Source: Paractinoplanes deccanensis (GTDB lineage Bacteria; Actinomycetota; Actinomycetes; Mycobacteriales; Micromonosporaceae). Taken from it: a stretch of 64,000 nt of DNA. Both the position numbers and the translations under genes were made by a program. The notes beneath the pieces are model-generated. The model ran no database searches. It was not told the origin of the DNA and worked only from the letters and a program-made list of their open reading frames with translations. Positions 16,576-22,659 of the stretch are shown piece by piece (position 1 is the stretch's first letter; each line of letters opens with the position of its first letter). The stretch spans positions 1-64,000 of the forward strand of contig NZ_BOMI01000115.1 of assembly GCF_016862115.1 (NCBI RefSeq), given 5' to 3'.

Positions 16576-17316
16576 TCATTGCCGGCCGGGGTGAGAGGCG
16601 GAACGCAGGGCCCGGATCGCCCGCTCGACGGCGCCGGTGGCCGCGGGCGACGCGCGCAGCGCGTTGAGCATCATGAAGTGGGGCGGGGCACCCTCGTAGG
16701 TGACGGTCGTCGTGCGGACACCGGCCGCTCGGAGCCTGCCGGCGTAGGCAGCGCCCTCGTCGTCGCCACGCGCGACGACGAACGTCTCCGGCGACCGGGA
16801 CGGGTCCGCGACCTCGCGGAGGCCGCACGGGTAGTACAGCGACTGGTGGATGAAGGGGATGCCGGTCGCCGACAGCGCGGCCGCCAGGGCGCCGCCGGCC
16901 TCGTCGCCCGCGACGGAGATCCGGGCGCCGTCCAGCCCGGCGAACCGGCCCCGCGCCGCGATCCACCGCGCCACGGCGTACGACTGCTCCCAAGCCTCGG
17001 CGAAGGCGCCCTCGTGCTCGACGAAGGCGATCGCCACGTGCGCCCCGACGGCGAGCTCCCGCACGAGCCGGTCGTGGGTGCCGGCGTTGCCCATCACGAA
17101 GCCGCCGCCGTGCAGGTAGAGAACCGCCGGCAGCACCCGGGTGGCCCCGGGCGGGCGCACGATACGCACCGGCACGTCGCCCACCGTCACCCACGTCTCG
17201 TCGACGTCGAGCTTCGGCGCGGGGGCGGCCTGTGCGGCCTCCAGCGCTTGGCGAGCCGAGTCGTCGCCGCGGGCGCGGTCGTCGTTGCGGGTGCGGTCGC
17301 CGGGGAGAAGCATCAT
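16576..17316 (-). CDS. HSL-type alpha/beta hydrolase, shortened and lacking the catalytic serine
   Basis: About 246 residues, against roughly 300 for the hormone-sensitive-lipase family. The oxyanion motif LYLHGGGFVMG is intact, but the nucleophile motif GDSAGG reads GDEAGG (Glu139, codon GAG). The segment between this motif and YYPCGLREV is shorter than usual, and the acid-residue region (usually DPLRDEG) reads ARGDDEG. It is therefore unlikely to be an active esterase. ATG 17316 or 17313 is preferred: a TGTCACA-type promoter lies just upstream, which would give an almost leaderless transcript. Probably heads an operon with the hydrolase at 15848-16555. Confidence 0.8.
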   Translation of the reverse strand: MMLLPGDRTRNDDRARGDDSARQALEAAQAAPAPKLDVDETWVTVGDVPVRIVRPPGATRVLPAVLYLHGGGFVMGNAGTHDRLVRELAVGAHVAIAFVEHEGAFAEAWEQSYAVARWIAARGRFAGLDGARISVAGDEAGGALAAALSATGIPFIHQSLYYPCGLREVADPSRSPETFVVARGDDEGAAYAGRLRAAGVRTTTVTYEGAPPHFMMLNALRASPAATGAVERAIRALRSASHPGRQ

Positions 17317-17325
17317 GCCAGCCGA

Positions 17326-17352
17326 GACAGGACGGCCGTGGTTTCTGTGACA
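17326..17352 (-). promoter_or_regulatory. Putative ECF41-type promoter for the hydrolase pair
   Basis: On the minus strand TGTCACA (17352-17346) is followed after exactly 16 bases by TGTC (17329-17326). The -35 element matches the known ECF41 type (TGTCACA) and the -10 resembles CGTC. It also lies within a 13-base palindrome TTCTGTGACAGAA (17343-17355). Confidence 0.6.
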
Positions 17353-17392
17353 GAAGCTTGGTGATTGCCGCGGCACGGATCAGGATGGGCAG

Positions 17393-18262
17393 GTGACGAC
17401 GGATCTGGACGATGCCACGGCGGTCTTCCTCGGCGTGCGCCCGCGGCTGTTCGGCATCGCCTATCGGATGCTCGGCAGCGCCGGCGAGGCCGAGGACCTG
17501 CTCCAGGACGTCTGGCTGCGCTGGCAGGCGTACGACCGCAGCCAGGTCACGAATCCGGCCGCGTTCCTGGCGACCACGACCACCCGGCTCGCCATCAACG
17601 AGCTCCAGTCGGCGCGCGCCCGCCGCGAGACGTACGTCGGGCCCTGGCTGCCCGAGCCCGTCGACACGAGCGCCGATCCCTATCTGGGCGCCGAACGAGG
17701 CGAGGCGCTGGAATACGCGACCCTGCTGCTGATGGAGAGGCTCAAGCCCGCCGAGCGCGCCGCCTACGTGCTCCGGGAGGCGTTCGACTACCCGTACGCG
17801 CAGATCGCCGGCATCCTCCAGACCTCCGAGCCCGCCGTGCGCCAGCTCGTCAGCCGCGCCCGCAAGCACCTGACCGAGTCGCGGCGCACACCGGTGGCCG
17901 CCGACGAGCAAAAGAGGCTGCTGGCCGCGTTCCTCGAGGCCTCCCGCGGCGGCGACCTGAGCGCCCTCGAGAAGCTGCTCGCGCCCGGCGTGGTCAGCCT
18001 CTCCGACGGCAACGGCGCGCCCGGCGTCGCCCGCCGTCCGGTCGAGGGAGCGCTGCGGGTCGCGAAGTTCATGATGGCGCTCTCCGAGTGGATCTGGGAC
18101 GGTGCCGAGCTGCGGTGGCTGGCGAGCAACGGCCAGAGCGCGCTGCTCATCCGGCTGGCCGACGGCCGGACGGCCTACCTCACGGCCGGTGCGACGGCGG
18201 AGGGCATCGACCGCGTTCTCTGGCAGATGGTTCCCGAAAAACTGTCACAAACGCTGGGGTGA
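17393..18262 (+). CDS. ECF41-family RNA polymerase sigma factor with SnoaL-like extension
   Basis: A 289-residue ECF sigma factor. Region 2 covers about 10-75 (FGIAYRMLGSAGEAEDLLQD), the linker carries the ECF41 signature WLPEP (85-89), and region 4 covers about 105-160 (AEAQI-like helix plus SEPAVRQLVSRARK). A SnoaL-like domain follows from about 170. In ECF41 proteins this extension, not a separate anti-sigma factor, regulates activity. Here two of its signature motifs are altered: DGNG (205-208) for DGGG, and VPEKL (280-284) for the usual NPDKL. The gene is divergent from the hydrolase pair and followed by an oxidoreductase with a matching promoter. Confidence 0.92.
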   Translation: MTTDLDDATAVFLGVRPRLFGIAYRMLGSAGEAEDLLQDVWLRWQAYDRSQVTNPAAFLATTTTRLAINELQSARARRETYVGPWLPEPVDTSADPYLGAERGEALEYATLLLMERLKPAERAAYVLREAFDYPYAQIAGILQTSEPAVRQLVSRARKHLTESRRTPVAADEQKRLLAAFLEASRGGDLSALEKLLAPGVVSLSDGNGAPGVARRPVEGALRVAKFMMALSEWIWDGAELRWLASNGQSALLIRLADGRTAYLTAGATAEGIDRVLWQMVPEKLSQTLG

Positions 18263-18269
18263 TCCGGTC
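18243..18269 (+). promoter_or_regulatory. Putative ECF41-type promoter for the NDH-2-like gene
   Basis: TGTCACA (18243-18249), then 16 bases, then GGTC (18266-18269). The -35 lies within the last codons of the sigma factor gene. A start of transcription near 18276 would leave a leader of about 27 bases before ATG 18303. Confidence 0.65.
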
Positions 18270-18302
18270 TAAGGGGTGACTGCGAGAGAAACAGAGGACC
18301 CC

Positions 18303-19703
18303 ATGCGGACGATCCTGGTGGTGGGCGGCGGCTATGCCGGCTTCTACACGGCGTGGAAGCTGGAGAAGAAGCTCCGCCGTGACGAAGCGCGCGTCGTCGT
18401 GGTCGACCCTCGTCCCTACATGACCTACCAGCCGTTCCTCCCCGAGGTCGTGGCCGGCTCCGTCGAGGCCCGTCACGCCGCCGTGTCGATGCGCCGCCAC
18501 CTCACCAAGACCAGGATCATCGCCGGTACGGTGGTGAAGGTCGACCACGCGCACAAGACGGCCACGATCCGCCCCGCCGAGGGACCCGAGTACGCGTTCC
18601 CGTACGACATCATCGCCGTCACCGCGGGCGCCGTGACGCGCAAGCTCGACATCCCCGGCGTCACCGAGCACGCGATCGGCATGAAGCACGTCGAGGAGGC
18701 CGTGGCCATCCGCGACCGCCTGCTGACGAACTTCGACCGCGCCGCCACGCTCCCGCCCGGCCCGCAGCGCCGCCGGCTGCTGACCGTCACCTTCGTCGGC
18801 GGCGGCTTCTCGGGTGTGGAGGGCTTCGGCGAGCTGCTGTCGCTGGCGACCGCGCTGGCCCGCAGATATCCCGAGCTCGACCCGGCCGAGCTCTCCTTCC
18901 ACCTGGTCGAGGCGCGCGGCCGCATCCTGCCCGAGGTGACGGACAAGCCCGGCGAGTGGGTGGTGCGCTCGCTGGAGAAGCGCGGCGCGCACATCCACCT
19001 CAACGCGGTGCTCCAGTCGGCCGACGGCGGCCACGTGGTCCTGTCGACCGGCGAGGAGTTCGACTCGGACCTCATCGTGTGGACGGTCGGCAACGCGGCG
19101 AGCCCGCTCGTGCGCAACCACACCGACCTGCCGATCGACGGCCGCGGCATGCTGATGGTCCGCGCCGACCTGCGCGTGGGTGACGCGTCGTCGTTCGTGC
19201 CGGACGCGTGGGGCGCCGGCGACGACGCGGCCGTGCCCGACCTGGCGCTGGCCGGCGCCAAACCCGGCGCCGCGACGGTGCCGAACGCGCAGCACGCCGT
19301 CCGCCAGGGCAAGCTGCTGGCGAGGAACATCGTCGCGAGCCTGCGGGGCCGCGAGCCCAAGCAGTATTTGCACCACAGCCTCGGCGTGGTGGCGACGCTG
19401 GGCCTGGGGCGGGGCATCTTCCAGTACAAGGGAATCGTCATCAAGGGCTTCCCGGCGTGGGTGATGCACCGGGGCTATCACGTGCTCGCCGTGCCGAGCT
19501 GGGAGCGCAAGGTGCGCGTCCTGCTCGTCTGGGTGACGGCCGCGTTGTTCGGGCGCGACATCGTGTCGCTGGCGTCGGTGCAGCACCCGCGCCGCGCCTT
19601 CGTGACGGGCGGCGAGGTGCCGGCCGCGTCCGAGGAGCCGGCCGCGCACGAGGTGCAGGCGGTCTCCGCCGGAGCCTCGCGTGAGCATGCCCCCTCGGCA
19701 TGA
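18303..19703 (+). CDS. NDH-2-like NAD(P)/FAD-dependent oxidoreductase
   Basis: A 466-residue flavoprotein. The N-terminal FAD-binding motif is VVGGGYAGFYTAWKLE, a second dinucleotide motif is VTFVGGGFSGVEGFGEL, and the FAD-contact motif is WGAGDDAAVPD. A C-terminal hydrophobic stretch (KVRVLLVWVTAALFGRDIV) suggests membrane attachment, as in type II NADH dehydrogenases. ATG 18303 is chosen over an upstream GTG because of the AGAGGA site and the predicted promoter. Oxidoreductases of this kind are typical neighbours of ECF41 sigma genes. Its end overlaps the next gene by 23 bases. Confidence 0.88.
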   Translation: MRTILVVGGGYAGFYTAWKLEKKLRRDEARVVVVDPRPYMTYQPFLPEVVAGSVEARHAAVSMRRHLTKTRIIAGTVVKVDHAHKTATIRPAEGPEYAFPYDIIAVTAGAVTRKLDIPGVTEHAIGMKHVEEAVAIRDRLLTNFDRAATLPPGPQRRRLLTVTFVGGGFSGVEGFGELLSLATALARRYPELDPAELSFHLVEARGRILPEVTDKPGEWVVRSLEKRGAHIHLNAVLQSADGGHVVLSTGEEFDSDLIVWTVGNAASPLVRNHTDLPIDGRGMLMVRADLRVGDASSFVPDAWGAGDDAAVPDLALAGAKPGAATVPNAQHAVRQGKLLARNIVASLRGREPKQYLHHSLGVVATLGLGRGIFQYKGIVIKGFPAWVMHRGYHVLAVPSWERKVRVLLVWVTAALFGRDIVSLASVQHPRRAFVTGGEVPAASEEPAAHEVQAVSAGASREHAPSA

Positions 19704-20061
19704 CGACGCCGTGCGGAGGTTTCTGGCCGCCTGCCTGACGGGAGACACCGCGGCGCTGGGAGCCGCCCTGCACCAGGACGCCGTCGCCACGTGCGACGGC
19801 GGCGGGGCGGTCCTCGCGGCGCTCAATCCTGTGCACGGTGCGGAGAACGTCGCCGCCCTGGTGTCCGTGCTGCTGTGTGTGCCGGGCACCGAGCTCACCC
19901 TCGCGGCGGTCAACGGCCGCGCCGGCCTGGCCCTGCGCCGCGCCGGCCGCGCCGAGGCCGTCGTCGCCACCGATTGCGCCGGCGACCTCGTGGCGGCGCT
20001 GTGGATAGTGCTCAACCCCGCGAAGCTGTCCCGTTGGCATGTCACCACAGAACATGGTTAA
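19681..20061 (+). CDS. Stand-alone SnoaL-like protein resembling the ECF41 sigma regulatory domain
   Basis: A 126-residue soluble protein consisting of one SnoaL-like (NTF2-fold) domain. It aligns by eye with the C-terminal extension of ECF41 sigma factors: RRFLAACLTGDTAAL, then CDGGGAV (DGGG at 39-42), GAENVAAL, AVNGRAGLAL and ALWIVLNPAKLSRW (NPAKL at 112-116). These motifs are closer to the ECF41 consensus than those of the sigma factor at 17393. No sigma region 2 or 4 is present. It starts at GTG 19681 (or ATG 19687) inside the oxidoreductase gene, so it is translationally coupled to it. Confidence 0.85.
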   Translation: MSMPPRHDDAVRRFLAACLTGDTAALGAALHQDAVATCDGGGAVLAALNPVHGAENVAALVSVLLCVPGTELTLAAVNGRAGLALRRAGRAEAVVATDCAGDLVAALWIVLNPAKLSRWHVTTEHG

Positions 20062-20077: not shown

Positions 20078-20098
20078 GAACGTTGAGGCACCACGTTC
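20078..20098. promoter_or_regulatory. Inverted repeat upstream of the SDR gene
   Basis: GAACGT (20078-20083) is inverted as ACGTTC (20093-20098) with a 9-base spacer, just before the ribosome site of the SDR gene. It could be the operator of the XRE-type regulator that follows that gene. Confidence 0.35.
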
Positions 20099-20112
20099 CA
20101 CAGGGAGTAATC

Positions 20113-21045
20113 GTGAGAAAAGTTAGCCTCGATTCGCAGAATCTCACCGGCCGGCTGGCCCTCGTCACCGGCGCCAACAGCGGTGTCGGCCTCGGCCTCG
20201 CCACCCGCCTGGCCGCCGCCGGCGCCGAAGTGCTCCTCGCCGTCCGCGACACCGCCAAAGGCGAGTCGGCCCTCGTCCGCATCCGTGACGAGGTGCCCGC
20301 CGCCAAGCTCTCGCTCCGCCCTCTCGACCTGGCCTCGCTCGAGTCCGTGCACGCCCTCATCGACGGCCTGCTGACCGCGGGGAGGCCCGTCGACATCCTC
20401 GTCAACAACGCCGGGGTGATGGCCCCCGCCACGCGGCACACCACCGCCGACGGCCTGGAGCTCCAGTTCGGCACCAACTTCGTCGGCCATGCCGTGCTCA
20501 CCCAGCGCCTGCTGCCGCTGCTGCGCGAGGCGAAGGCCCGCGTCACCACCGTGACGAGCAGCGCCGCGCGCCAGGGCCGGCTCGACTTCGATGACCTCCA
20601 GGCCGAGCGCCGCTATTCGCCGGTCAAGGCGTACAACAACTCCAAGCTGGCCGACCTGCTCCTCGCGCTGGAGCTCGACCGCCGCAGCCGCGCCGAGGGC
20701 TGGGGCATCGTCAGCAACGCCGCACACCCCGGCACCACGCTGACCGGCCTCTACGCCGCCGGCCCGAACCTGGGGCGCCCCAAGCCCGCACCCCACGAGG
20801 CCGTCATGACCCGGTTGGCGCGCTGGGGAATCCTGGTCCAGGCCGTCCCCCAGGGCGTCCTGCCGATCCTGTACGCGGCCACGAGCCCGCATGCCGAGGG
20901 CGGCCGCCTCTACGGCCCCGACGGCTTCGGCCAGTTCACGGGCGGCCCGGCGGAGCTCACCGTCTACAAGTCCGCGCGGGACGAGGCCGCCGCCGCGCGC
21001 CTGTGGGACTACGCCGCCGGCGTACCGCAGCGAACGAAGGGCTGA
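20113..21045 (+). CDS. Short-chain dehydrogenase/reductase (SDR)
   Basis: A 310-residue classical SDR. The nucleotide-binding motif is [12 protein letters not shown], the NNAG motif lies in ILVNNAGVM, and the catalytic set is Ser (VTSSAARQG) with YNNSK in place of the usual YxxxK pattern. It resembles the retinol/protochlorophyllide-reductase-like group. GTG 20113 is preferred because GGGAG stands eight bases before it. The XRE-type regulator gene begins one base after its stop, a pairing common in actinomycetes where the regulator controls the SDR. Confidence 0.88.
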
Positions 21046-21046
21046 G

Positions 21047-21898
21047 ATGGACCGCGCGAGACTGGCCGAATATCTGCGCACGCGCCGGGAAGCGCTTCAG
21101 CCCGAGGATGTGGGGCTTCCGCGCGGGCAGCGGCGGCGGACCCGTGGCCTGCGCCGCGAGGAGGTGGCGGTGCTCAGCGACATGTCGATCGACTACTACA
21201 GCCGGCTCGAGCAGCCGCGCGGGCCGCATCCGTCCGAGCAGATGCTCACCGCTCTCGCGCGCGGGCTGCGGCTGTCGATGGAGGAGCGCGACCACCTCTT
21301 CGAGCTGGCGGGATATGCGACGCCGCGCCGGTCGGTCGACAGCGAGCACGTGAATCCGGGCATGCTGCGCATCTTCGACGGGCTGGCCGACGCGCCGGCG
21401 ATGGTTGTGTCCTCACTGGGCGAGACGTTGCTGCAGACGCGGCTCGCGGTGGCGCTGCTGGGCGACGAGAGCATCTACAGCGGGCTCGACCGGAGCAAGC
21501 ACTACCGCTGGTTCACCGACCCGGCGACACGAGCGCCGCACCCGCGCGAGGAGTGGGACGAGCAGAGCCGGCTGATCGTGGCGGACCTGCTCCAGTCGTA
21601 CACCCGCGACGGCGCGGACTCGCGGGCCGGCGCTCTGCTCGAGGCGCTGCTGCCGGCCAGCCCGTCGTTCGCGGCGCTGTGGAAGCAGCATCCGGTCGCC
21701 GGGCCCTACTGCGGGCCGGTGCGGCTGCTGCACCCGGAGGTCGGGCCGCTGGAGCTGGACTGCCAGCGGCTCCTCGACCCGGACCGGTCGCAGCAGCTCG
21801 TCGTCTACACGGCGAAACCCGGCTCCCTCTCCCAGGAACGGCTCCAGCTCCTGTCGATCATCGGCTCGACACCCACTCCTGATAGGTCGTCCTCGTGA
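21047..21898 (+). CDS. XRE-family regulator with MmyB-like ligand-binding domain
   Basis: A 283-residue regulator. The N-terminal XRE helix-turn-helix (about 1-80) contains RTRGLRREEVAVLSDMSIDYYSRLEQPR in two parts typical of this group (RGLRREEVA and YYSRLEQ). The C-terminal part matches the MmyB-like ligand-binding domain (FDGLADAPAMVVSSLGETL, then FAALWKQHPV and HPEVGPLEL). The ATG at 21047 follows the SDR stop by one base. It probably controls the SDR gene. Its 3' end overlaps the convergent NmrA-like gene by 41 bases. Confidence 0.9.
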   Translation: MDRARLAEYLRTRREALQPEDVGLPRGQRRRTRGLRREEVAVLSDMSIDYYSRLEQPRGPHPSEQMLTALARGLRLSMEERDHLFELAGYATPRRSVDSEHVNPGMLRIFDGLADAPAMVVSSLGETLLQTRLAVALLGDESIYSGLDRSKHYRWFTDPATRAPHPREEWDEQSRLIVADLLQSYTRDGADSRAGALLEALLPASPSFAALWKQHPVAGPYCGPVRLLHPEVGPLELDCQRLLDPDRSQQLVVYTAKPGSLSQERLQLLSIIGSTPTPDRSSS

Positions 21899-22598
21899 TG
21901 ACCGCGCCGTCCCGGGCGATGATGGCGTCGCCGTGCACCGCCGCGAAGAGGCCGGCGCTCTCGTCGACGACGACGGGGCGCCGGTCGCCCTGGAAGGCCA
22001 GCGTGATGCGCCCGAGCTCGTCGAGCGGAAAGACCTCGGGGCCGGCGTAGTCGCGCACCCCCATGAGCGGCTCACCGGCCGCGACCTGCGCGACGGCGTT
22101 GGCCACCTCGGCCGAGGCCATCGGCTGCACGAGCGTCGACGGCAGGCGCACCGCGGTGTCGTCGGAGGTCCACGACATCACCGCGGTGACGAACTCGAAG
22201 AACTGCGTGGCCCGCACGATCGAGTACGGGATCTTCTCCTGCTCGGCGAGCAGCGTCTCCTGGAGCACCTTGGCCCGGTAGTAGGCGAGGTCCGGCACCC
22301 GGTCGGCGCCGACGATCGACAGGATGACGATGTGCTCGGTGCCGGCGTCCTCGGCCTCGTCGATCAGGTTCTCCATGGTCTCCCGGAAGAACACCGCGGA
22401 GGCGTCGTCGAAGGTCGGCGAGTTCGTCAAGTTGATGACCGTTTGCGCGCCCTTGATGGCCTCCGCGACGCCCTTGCCGCTGCTCAGGTCGACGCCGTTG
22501 GAGAGCGAGTAGGGCGCCGCCTCGTGCCCCTGAGCGTTGAGGAGCTTGACGACCTGCGAGCCGATCAGCCCGGTGCCGCCGATGACAGCGATCTTCAT
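21858..22598 (-). CDS. NmrA-like NAD(P)-binding oxidoreductase
   Basis: A 246-residue atypical SDR: the dinucleotide motif is IGGTGLIGSQVVKLL, followed by INLTNSPTFDD, HIVILSIVGADRV and YSIVRATQFFEFV, which are characteristic of the NmrA-type oxidoreductases commonly found beside ECF41 sigma genes. ATG 22598 has a GGAAGG site about ten bases upstream. A TGTCACA-N16-GGTC promoter lies 28 bases or so before it, linking it to the sigma factor at 17393 despite the SDR and XRE genes between them. Confidence 0.9.
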   Translation of the reverse strand: MKIAVIGGTGLIGSQVVKLLNAQGHEAAPYSLSNGVDLSSGKGVAEAIKGAQTVINLTNSPTFDDASAVFFRETMENLIDEAEDAGTEHIVILSIVGADRVPDLAYYRAKVLQETLLAEQEKIPYSIVRATQFFEFVTAVMSWTSDDTAVRLPSTLVQPMASAEVANAVAQVAAGEPLMGVRDYAGPEVFPLDELGRITLAFQGDRRPVVVDESAGLFAAVHGDAIIARDGAVITRTTYQEWVSSR

Positions 22599-22632: not shown

Positions 22633-22659
22633 GACCACGGGGCCCGGCCGGATGTGACA
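22633..22659 (-). promoter_or_regulatory. Putative ECF41-type promoter for the NmrA-like gene
   Basis: On the minus strand TGTCACA (22659-22653), 16 bases, then GGTC (22636-22633). The expected transcription start near 22626 leaves a leader of about 28 bases, nearly the same geometry as at 18243-18303. Confidence 0.65.

Follow-up and report, generated by a model that had tools for sequence, protein, structure and literature searches.

On balance, we favour the reading that a small free-standing SnoaL protein of Paractinoplanes deccanensis serves the ECF41 sigma factor encoded next to it as a dedicated regulatory subunit acting in trans, probably exerting an inhibitory feedback. Profile matches and a domain tree show that this protein originated as the C-terminal SnoaL domain of a second ECF41 sigma factor, the sigma part of which was lost, and a comparison of genomes shows that it is co-inherited with sigma factors of the type found here. 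The locus lies in a window of 64,000 nucleotides, which is the whole stretch of DNA analysed; the features considered are the following.

17393-18262 (+): ECF41 sigma factor with sigma2, YVGPWLPEP linker, sigma4 and fused SnoaL domain (TIGR02957, Sigma70_r2, r4_2)
17633-17659 (+): YVGPWLPEP linker motif, sigma residues 81-89, proposed docking site (sequence)
17921-18250 (+): fused (cis) SnoaL domain of the sigma factor with DGNG and VPEKL, the latter at 18230-18244 (sequence, alignment)
18243-18269 (+): ECF41-type promoter TGTCACA-N16-GGTC before the NDH2-SnoaL-SDR operon (motif search)
18276-19703 (+): NDH2-like FAD oxidoreductase, first operon gene, likely start ATG 18303 (Pyr_redox_2, E 4e-34; sequence)
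19681-20061 (+): free-standing ECF41-type SnoaL protein, 126 aa (sequence, profile matches, tree, structure search)
19795-19806 (+): DGGG motif of the free protein, D39-G42 (sequence)
20014-20028 (+): NPAKL motif (residues 112-116), at which the C-terminal helix of the free protein begins (sequence; model)
20083-21045 (+): SDR oxidoreductase, last operon gene, likely start GTG 20113 (PRK05854, 428 bits; adh_short)
21858-22598 (-): NmrA-like / NAD(P)H-binding gene 3' of the second promoter, likely regulon member (gene position, motif)
22633-22659 (-): second ECF41-type promoter TGTCACA-N16-GGTC (motif search)

The free protein is an ECF41-type SnoaL domain

An initial annotation had described a SnoaL-only product of 126 residues with the signatures DGGG and NPAKL, coupled to the preceding gene, and the reading frame at 19681-20061 (+) is as described. 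The gene starts with GTG at 19681, about 7 nt downstream of a GGAG. This start lies inside the 3' end of the NDH2-like gene, whose stop is at 19703; because of this overlap, the proposed translational coupling of the two genes is plausible. DGGG stands in the context CDGGG, and in an AlphaFold2 model a helix comprising residues 113-119 is located at NPAKL.

The top NCBIfam matches are exclusively C-terminal parts of sigma-factor models, namely positions 164-279 of TIGR02957 (SigX4; E 3e-22) and 171-291 of PRK09636 (SigJ; E 1.5e-21). In Pfam, the generic SnoaL_2 match stays under the cut-off (21.5 versus 27 bits) and no Sigma70 match is found, the protein consisting of a SnoaL domain only. Among solved structures, the best match is the SnoaL domain of Mycobacterium tuberculosis SigJ (5xe7, residues 176-298; E 2e-13), and ketosteroid isomerase is not significant (E 0.43). 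The profile search that had been proposed as a check came out in favour of the annotation: in NCBIfam and among solved structures the closest matches are sigma-factor domains, and none is better to SnoaL enzymes. Being devoid of sigma2 and sigma4, the protein is not a member of the ECF41 sigma factors proper; it has what marks their regulatory domain, i.e. sigma-factor SnoaL domains as nearest relatives, DGGG and NPxKL. For an enzyme of the SnoaL/ketosteroid-isomerase type, it misses the family cut-off and carries Phe or Leu at the position of the catalytic Tyr. The ketosteroid isomerase-type fold is nevertheless shared: The model is NTF2-like and confident (pLDDT 89), and a fold search gave as top structural match the SnoaL domain of sigma factor SigG1 (Z 12.6). 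SigJ reached Z 10.1, a value tied by several enzymes, and 30% identity, the highest among the matches listed; many ketosteroid isomerases and related enzymes were also returned.

Two cysteines of the free protein, Cys18 (19732-19734) and Cys38 (19792-19794), are missing from the domain of the neighbouring sigma factor. In the alignment of 41 free proteins, Cys18 is found in 39 and Cys38 in 36 cases; of 141 fused domains in the comparison, none has Cys38; Cys18 is shared by 13 of 50 other ECF41 domains. A redox role of these residues is possible.

The neighbouring sigma factor and its predicted regulon

The free SnoaL gene is located 1.4 kb 3' of a sigma gene to which the initial annotation had assigned the motifs DGNG and VPEKL; both are present in the sequence at 17393-18262. 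Sigma2, sigma4, a SnoaL-type extension and the linker WLPEP identify this protein as an ECF41 member, and its TIGR02957 score of 324.7 bits is above the cut-off of 323.25. Its linker YVGPWLPEP is intact, the WLPEP core being found in all of 91 aligned sigmas, and the promoter TGTCACA-N16-GGTC before the NDH2-like gene deviates by one base from the ECF41 -10 consensus CGTC. DGNG, here in the context SDGNG, had been interpreted as an altered version of the motif. As a sign of a hand-over to the free protein this fails, because DGNG is found throughout the clade, whether or not a sigma has a partner. Nor is the arrangement a plain split of the usual one-protein design, as had been suggested, since the sigma factor retains its own fused SnoaL domain.

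Promoters of the form TGTCACA-N16-CGTC have been described for ECF41 at COE (oxidoreductase/epimerase) genes (PMC3426412). The exact pattern TGTCACA-N16-GGTC has four matches in the 10.6-Mb genome, two of them in the window, and the reversed-pattern control has none. For the clade at large, an ECF41-type motif was detected upstream of 20 of 23 NDH2 genes following the sigma gene (16 perfect) and before 5 of 17 SnoaL genes directly following it; the background in random 250-nt stretches is 2.4% (perfect: 1.1%). In contrast to the published consensus CGTC, the -10 element is here mostly GGTC or TGTC. The motif is also present just upstream of a relocated free SnoaL gene, or of its NDH2-SnoaL operon, in four genomes (Asanoa ishikariensis, Phytohabitans flavus, G074, and A. 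liguriensis). Taken together, these motifs make the free protein a very probable member of the sigma factor's own small regulon. Linkage and predicted promoter also agree with one of the traits that define the anti-sigma class, a gene linked to the sigma factor and under its control. A promoter directly ahead of the sigma gene itself was seen in 5 of 80 cases, which is not convincing.

On the opposite strand, TGTCACA-N16-TGTC occurs at 17326-17352 (-), ahead of a divergent alpha/beta-hydrolase gene (16576-17376, -) and at a short distance from its start codon; this gene may be a further regulon member.

The pair recurs in actinobacteria

Sigmas of the window type (E <= 1e-70) occur in 112 of 300 Micromonosporaceae genomes, and 80 clade sigmas from this family were compared together with their surroundings. 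In 33 of them, a free SnoaL gene lies no more than about 3.5 kb away and has the same orientation. NDH2 is near in 18 of these pairs and SDR in 12; since 11 pairs have neither, gene neighbourhoods tie the free protein more to the sigma factor than to the enzymes. The remaining 47 sigmas have no adjacent free partner, and the free protein is therefore dispensable to the basic mechanism.

A free-protein profile gave matches of 124-187 bits in 36 of the family genomes; below a gap follow, at 114 bits or less, fused sigma domains and divergent copies of genome G002. Each of the 36 family genomes with a strong match also has a window-type sigma (hypergeometric P ~6e-18, with the sigma in 112 of 300). 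A sample of the phylum, in which no strong free match was found outside the family, suggested that the pair is restricted to Micromonosporaceae; a scan of named genomes revealed this as a sampling artefact. The pair also occurs in Kibdelosporangium, Saccharothrix, Amycolatopsis, Labedaea, Catenulispora, Nocardiopsis (MAG), Actinopolymorpha, Nonomuraea, and Actinomadura, and dozens of actinobacterial genomes have both sigma and free SnoaL protein. Absence of the pair in relatives, which the initial annotation had named as a finding that would speak against it, is not what we observed: the pair is widespread in Micromonosporaceae and other actinobacteria.

Genome G002 has a different arrangement: at L048:10531-14298, a divergent free SnoaL gene is followed by ECF41 sigma genes from another subgroup, three in tandem. 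L048 has another divergent free SnoaL gene, which adjoins NDH2 and is not close to any sigma of the window type; in this locus, TGTCACA-N16/17-CGTC motifs occur several times.

Origin by domain loss

In a tree of 182 SnoaL domains, whose single forks are weak because the domain offers few columns, the free proteins form one clade of 40 rows (SH-aLRT 92), with L051 as the only outlier. The sister of this clade (support 91) consists of fused domains from a different subgroup of ECF41, and the fused domains of window-type sigmas are placed elsewhere. The protein had been regarded as a copy of the ECF41 regulatory domain, and a tree containing it and the neighbour's domain had been recommended. 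The profiles bear out a free-standing ECF41-type domain, but the tree sets it apart from the neighbour's own domain and assigns it to a different subgroup.

Several partners carry a sigma-region-2-like domain N-terminal to SnoaL (L040, L230, L245, L248, L258, L260, and the more distant L266); L245, L248, L258, L260, and L266 are loci outside Micromonosporaceae. Such partners, which lack WLPEP and a sigma4 match, occur in Actinopolymorpha, Nonomuraea, Actinomadura, and Streptomyces. For five of them tested against Pfam, Sigma70_r2 was found in all cases (in L248 over the cut-off, in the others weakly) and sigma4 in none. They align to SigJ across sigma2 and SnoaL, the linker with WLPEP and sigma4 being missing; the full-length sister sigma L023 has both. 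In the SnoaL tree, L040 and L230 are separate branches outside the SnoaL-only forms. Because some relatives keep a sigma-2-like part without WLPEP linker and sigma4, the free protein is what remains of a paralogous sigma factor after decapitation. The simplest history is that an ECF41 paralogue lost linker and sigma4 first and sigma2 later. Note that the free ORFs of L237/L238 were left out, as they resemble frameshifted sigmas. The outlier L051:5676-6119 (G039, same order, another family) is a free ECF41-like SnoaL protein with no sigma in 12 kb around it and is possibly an independent case.

In Micromonosporaceae, four sigmas that belong to the clade or are close to it (G167, Asanoa ishikariensis, G308, and G316) end just inside their SnoaL domain, as does the one of Actinomadura physcomitrii (L248); downstream of these five genes, no remnant was seen. 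A free partner exists in the same genome in G167, A. ishikariensis, and L248; with the free-protein profile, G308 and G316 gave no strong match. Judged by gene content, three relatives are in a split-like state, in which the sigma factor's own domain is shortened and a free partner is present.

Two of these regions contain further genes. At L230:10759-11688 (-), a window-type sigma is cut inside SnoaL and the next ORF resembles, by eye, a PP2C/SpoIIE-type phosphatase. At L248:216-1193, the shortened sigma of A. physcomitrii is followed by a WhiB-like ORF (by eye), a hydrolase-like match and the sigma2-SnoaL partner.

Conservation and selection

The NPxKL helix is the most conserved part of the free protein: K115 and L116 are present in 41 of 41 sequences, P113 in 40. 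Pooled dN/dS rises from 0.10 in the sigma core to 0.31 in the fused domain and 0.45 in the free protein; compared with the sigma core, the free protein evolves at a higher rate. Across the compared pairs, its values are between 0.28 and 0.52, and every pair is below 0.6, which signals purifying selection. Sigma cores and free proteins show correlated distances (p 2e-4), r being 0.37 over 48 pairs and 0.51 when only the family is taken; this is evidence of co-inheritance, but it also mirrors the common history of the species, perhaps largely so.

The final L of NPxKL is found in 12 of 53 paired but 39 of 53 unpaired sigmas (Fisher p 2e-7); this set contains duplicates of two Saccharothrix/Labedaea genomes (L246/L285, L250/L286), and its paired loci outside the family were located via their SnoaL gene. 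Raw Fisher p-values for the erosion of NPxKL in paired sigmas range from 1e-3 to 2e-7. Corrected for relatedness, sign tests on independent contrasts were not significant, with about 2-3 informative pairs, nearly all in the expected direction. Because the contrasts are too few, erosion was dropped as proof; the more frequent loss in paired sigmas is suggestive.

Proposed mechanism and alternatives

In the mechanism we propose, the neighbouring sigma factor would switch on the NDH2-SnoaL-SDR operon and in this way produce the free SnoaL protein. The C-terminal NPxKL...W helix of the latter would dock in trans on the WLPEP linker of the sigma factor, mimicking the contact made in cis by fused ECF41 domains; for these, an NPDKL-linker contact has been described (PMC7730460). 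The docked protein would hold the sigma factor in a low-activity state and close a feedback loop, from which a ligand or redox signal, involving the conserved Asp39 or Cys18/Cys38, may release it. NPxKL persists in the partners although their own WLPEP is gone, so that it would be expected to dock on another protein; the neighbouring sigma factor always has the site required. The sign of control is the least certain step: judged by the truncations of the fused domain that have been published, the free protein more likely inhibits. A part of the ECF41 extension is required, and deleting the whole extension abolishes activity (PMC3426412); a domain acting in trans could therefore also activate. 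With somewhat less assurance, we suggest that the domain of a decapitated ECF41 paralogue, first with and then without the sigma-2 remnant, may constitute a new class of regulator that docks on the WLPEP of another sigma factor, and that in some lineages a true split may have arisen.

The main alternative is that the protein could be an effector of the regulon, an enzyme or ligand carrier of small size and NTF2 fold, which was recruited from a sigma domain and cooperates with NDH2 and SDR. It shares one operon with two oxidoreductases under the sigma factor's predicted promoter, the free gene is sometimes accompanied by NDH2 away from the sigma gene (L234, L039), and the enzymes returned by the fold search would fit, as would the alignment, which places Asp39 of DGGG near the catalytic loop of ketosteroid isomerase. 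We nevertheless consider this role unlikely: the sequence relatives are sigma-factor domains only, the gene is kept beside the sigma gene without both enzymes in 11 of 33 pairs, the ketosteroid isomerase Tyr is replaced by Phe or Leu, and the best conserved part, the NPxKL helix, is in the fused domain a docking and not a catalytic motif.

NTF2-fold proteins commonly dimerise, and the free protein might act on the fused SnoaL domain of the sigma factor, as heterodimer or by shared ligand sensing, or might be an activator that supplies the needed part of the extension. The partial requirement of the extension (PMC3426412) and the three genomes pairing a shortened sigma domain with a free partner are compatible with this idea. 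We regard it as quite improbable, as conservation is centred on the NPxKL helix, which contacts the linker in fused ECF41, and the shortened sigmas of G308 and G316 come without a strong free-SnoaL match. That the protein is a functionless, decaying relic of a tandem sigma gene is very improbable: its derivation from a sigma factor by domain loss, its patchy distribution (18-23 changes on trees), and its faster evolution compared with the sigma core would agree with decay, but purifying selection acts in all compared pairs, the motifs are invariant over several actinobacterial families, and the promoter is upstream even of relocated genes.

Relation to known systems

ECF41 is among the widest groups of sigma factors and has been described as needing no second protein (PMC3426412). 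The members with fused SnoaL domain (Ecf41Bli, Ecf41Rsp, and SigJ of M. tuberculosis) share with the system considered here the SnoaL family, NPxKL, the WLPEP of the sigma factor, the TGTCACA-N16 promoter and COE targets (PMC3426412); here, in contrast, an extra SnoaL domain is a separate protein stemming from another ECF41 paralogue. The ECF56 system SigG1-RsfG of Streptomyces tsukubaensis likewise combines a SnoaL-bearing ECF sigma factor with a co-encoded small regulator (PMC7730460), and it is the SnoaL domain of SigG1 that matches our model best; however, RsfG lacks Pfam domains according to its description, whereas the free protein is the ECF41 SnoaL domain itself. Two looser precedents are SigO-RsoA and PhyR (PMC8103513). 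SigO-RsoA also distributes sigma function over two co-encoded proteins, but separates sigma2 from sigma4, whereas the part set apart here is the regulatory domain. In alphaproteobacterial PhyR, a degenerate sigma-like domain is reused as a regulator, which is reminiscent of the sigma-2-bearing partners; unlike the free SnoaL protein, PhyR acts via an anti-sigma factor, carries a receiver domain and belongs to an unrelated lineage. A free-standing ECF41 SnoaL regulator is not described in the literature searched, which covers the central ECF41 papers incompletely.

If the free protein is indeed a trans-acting subunit of its neighbouring sigma factor, a conserved free regulatory domain would show that the ECF41 switch can also work in trans, and its relatives would provide natural intermediates between fused and split control. 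A domain that can be added separately would moreover offer a two-component handle for finding the signal to which ECF41 responds.
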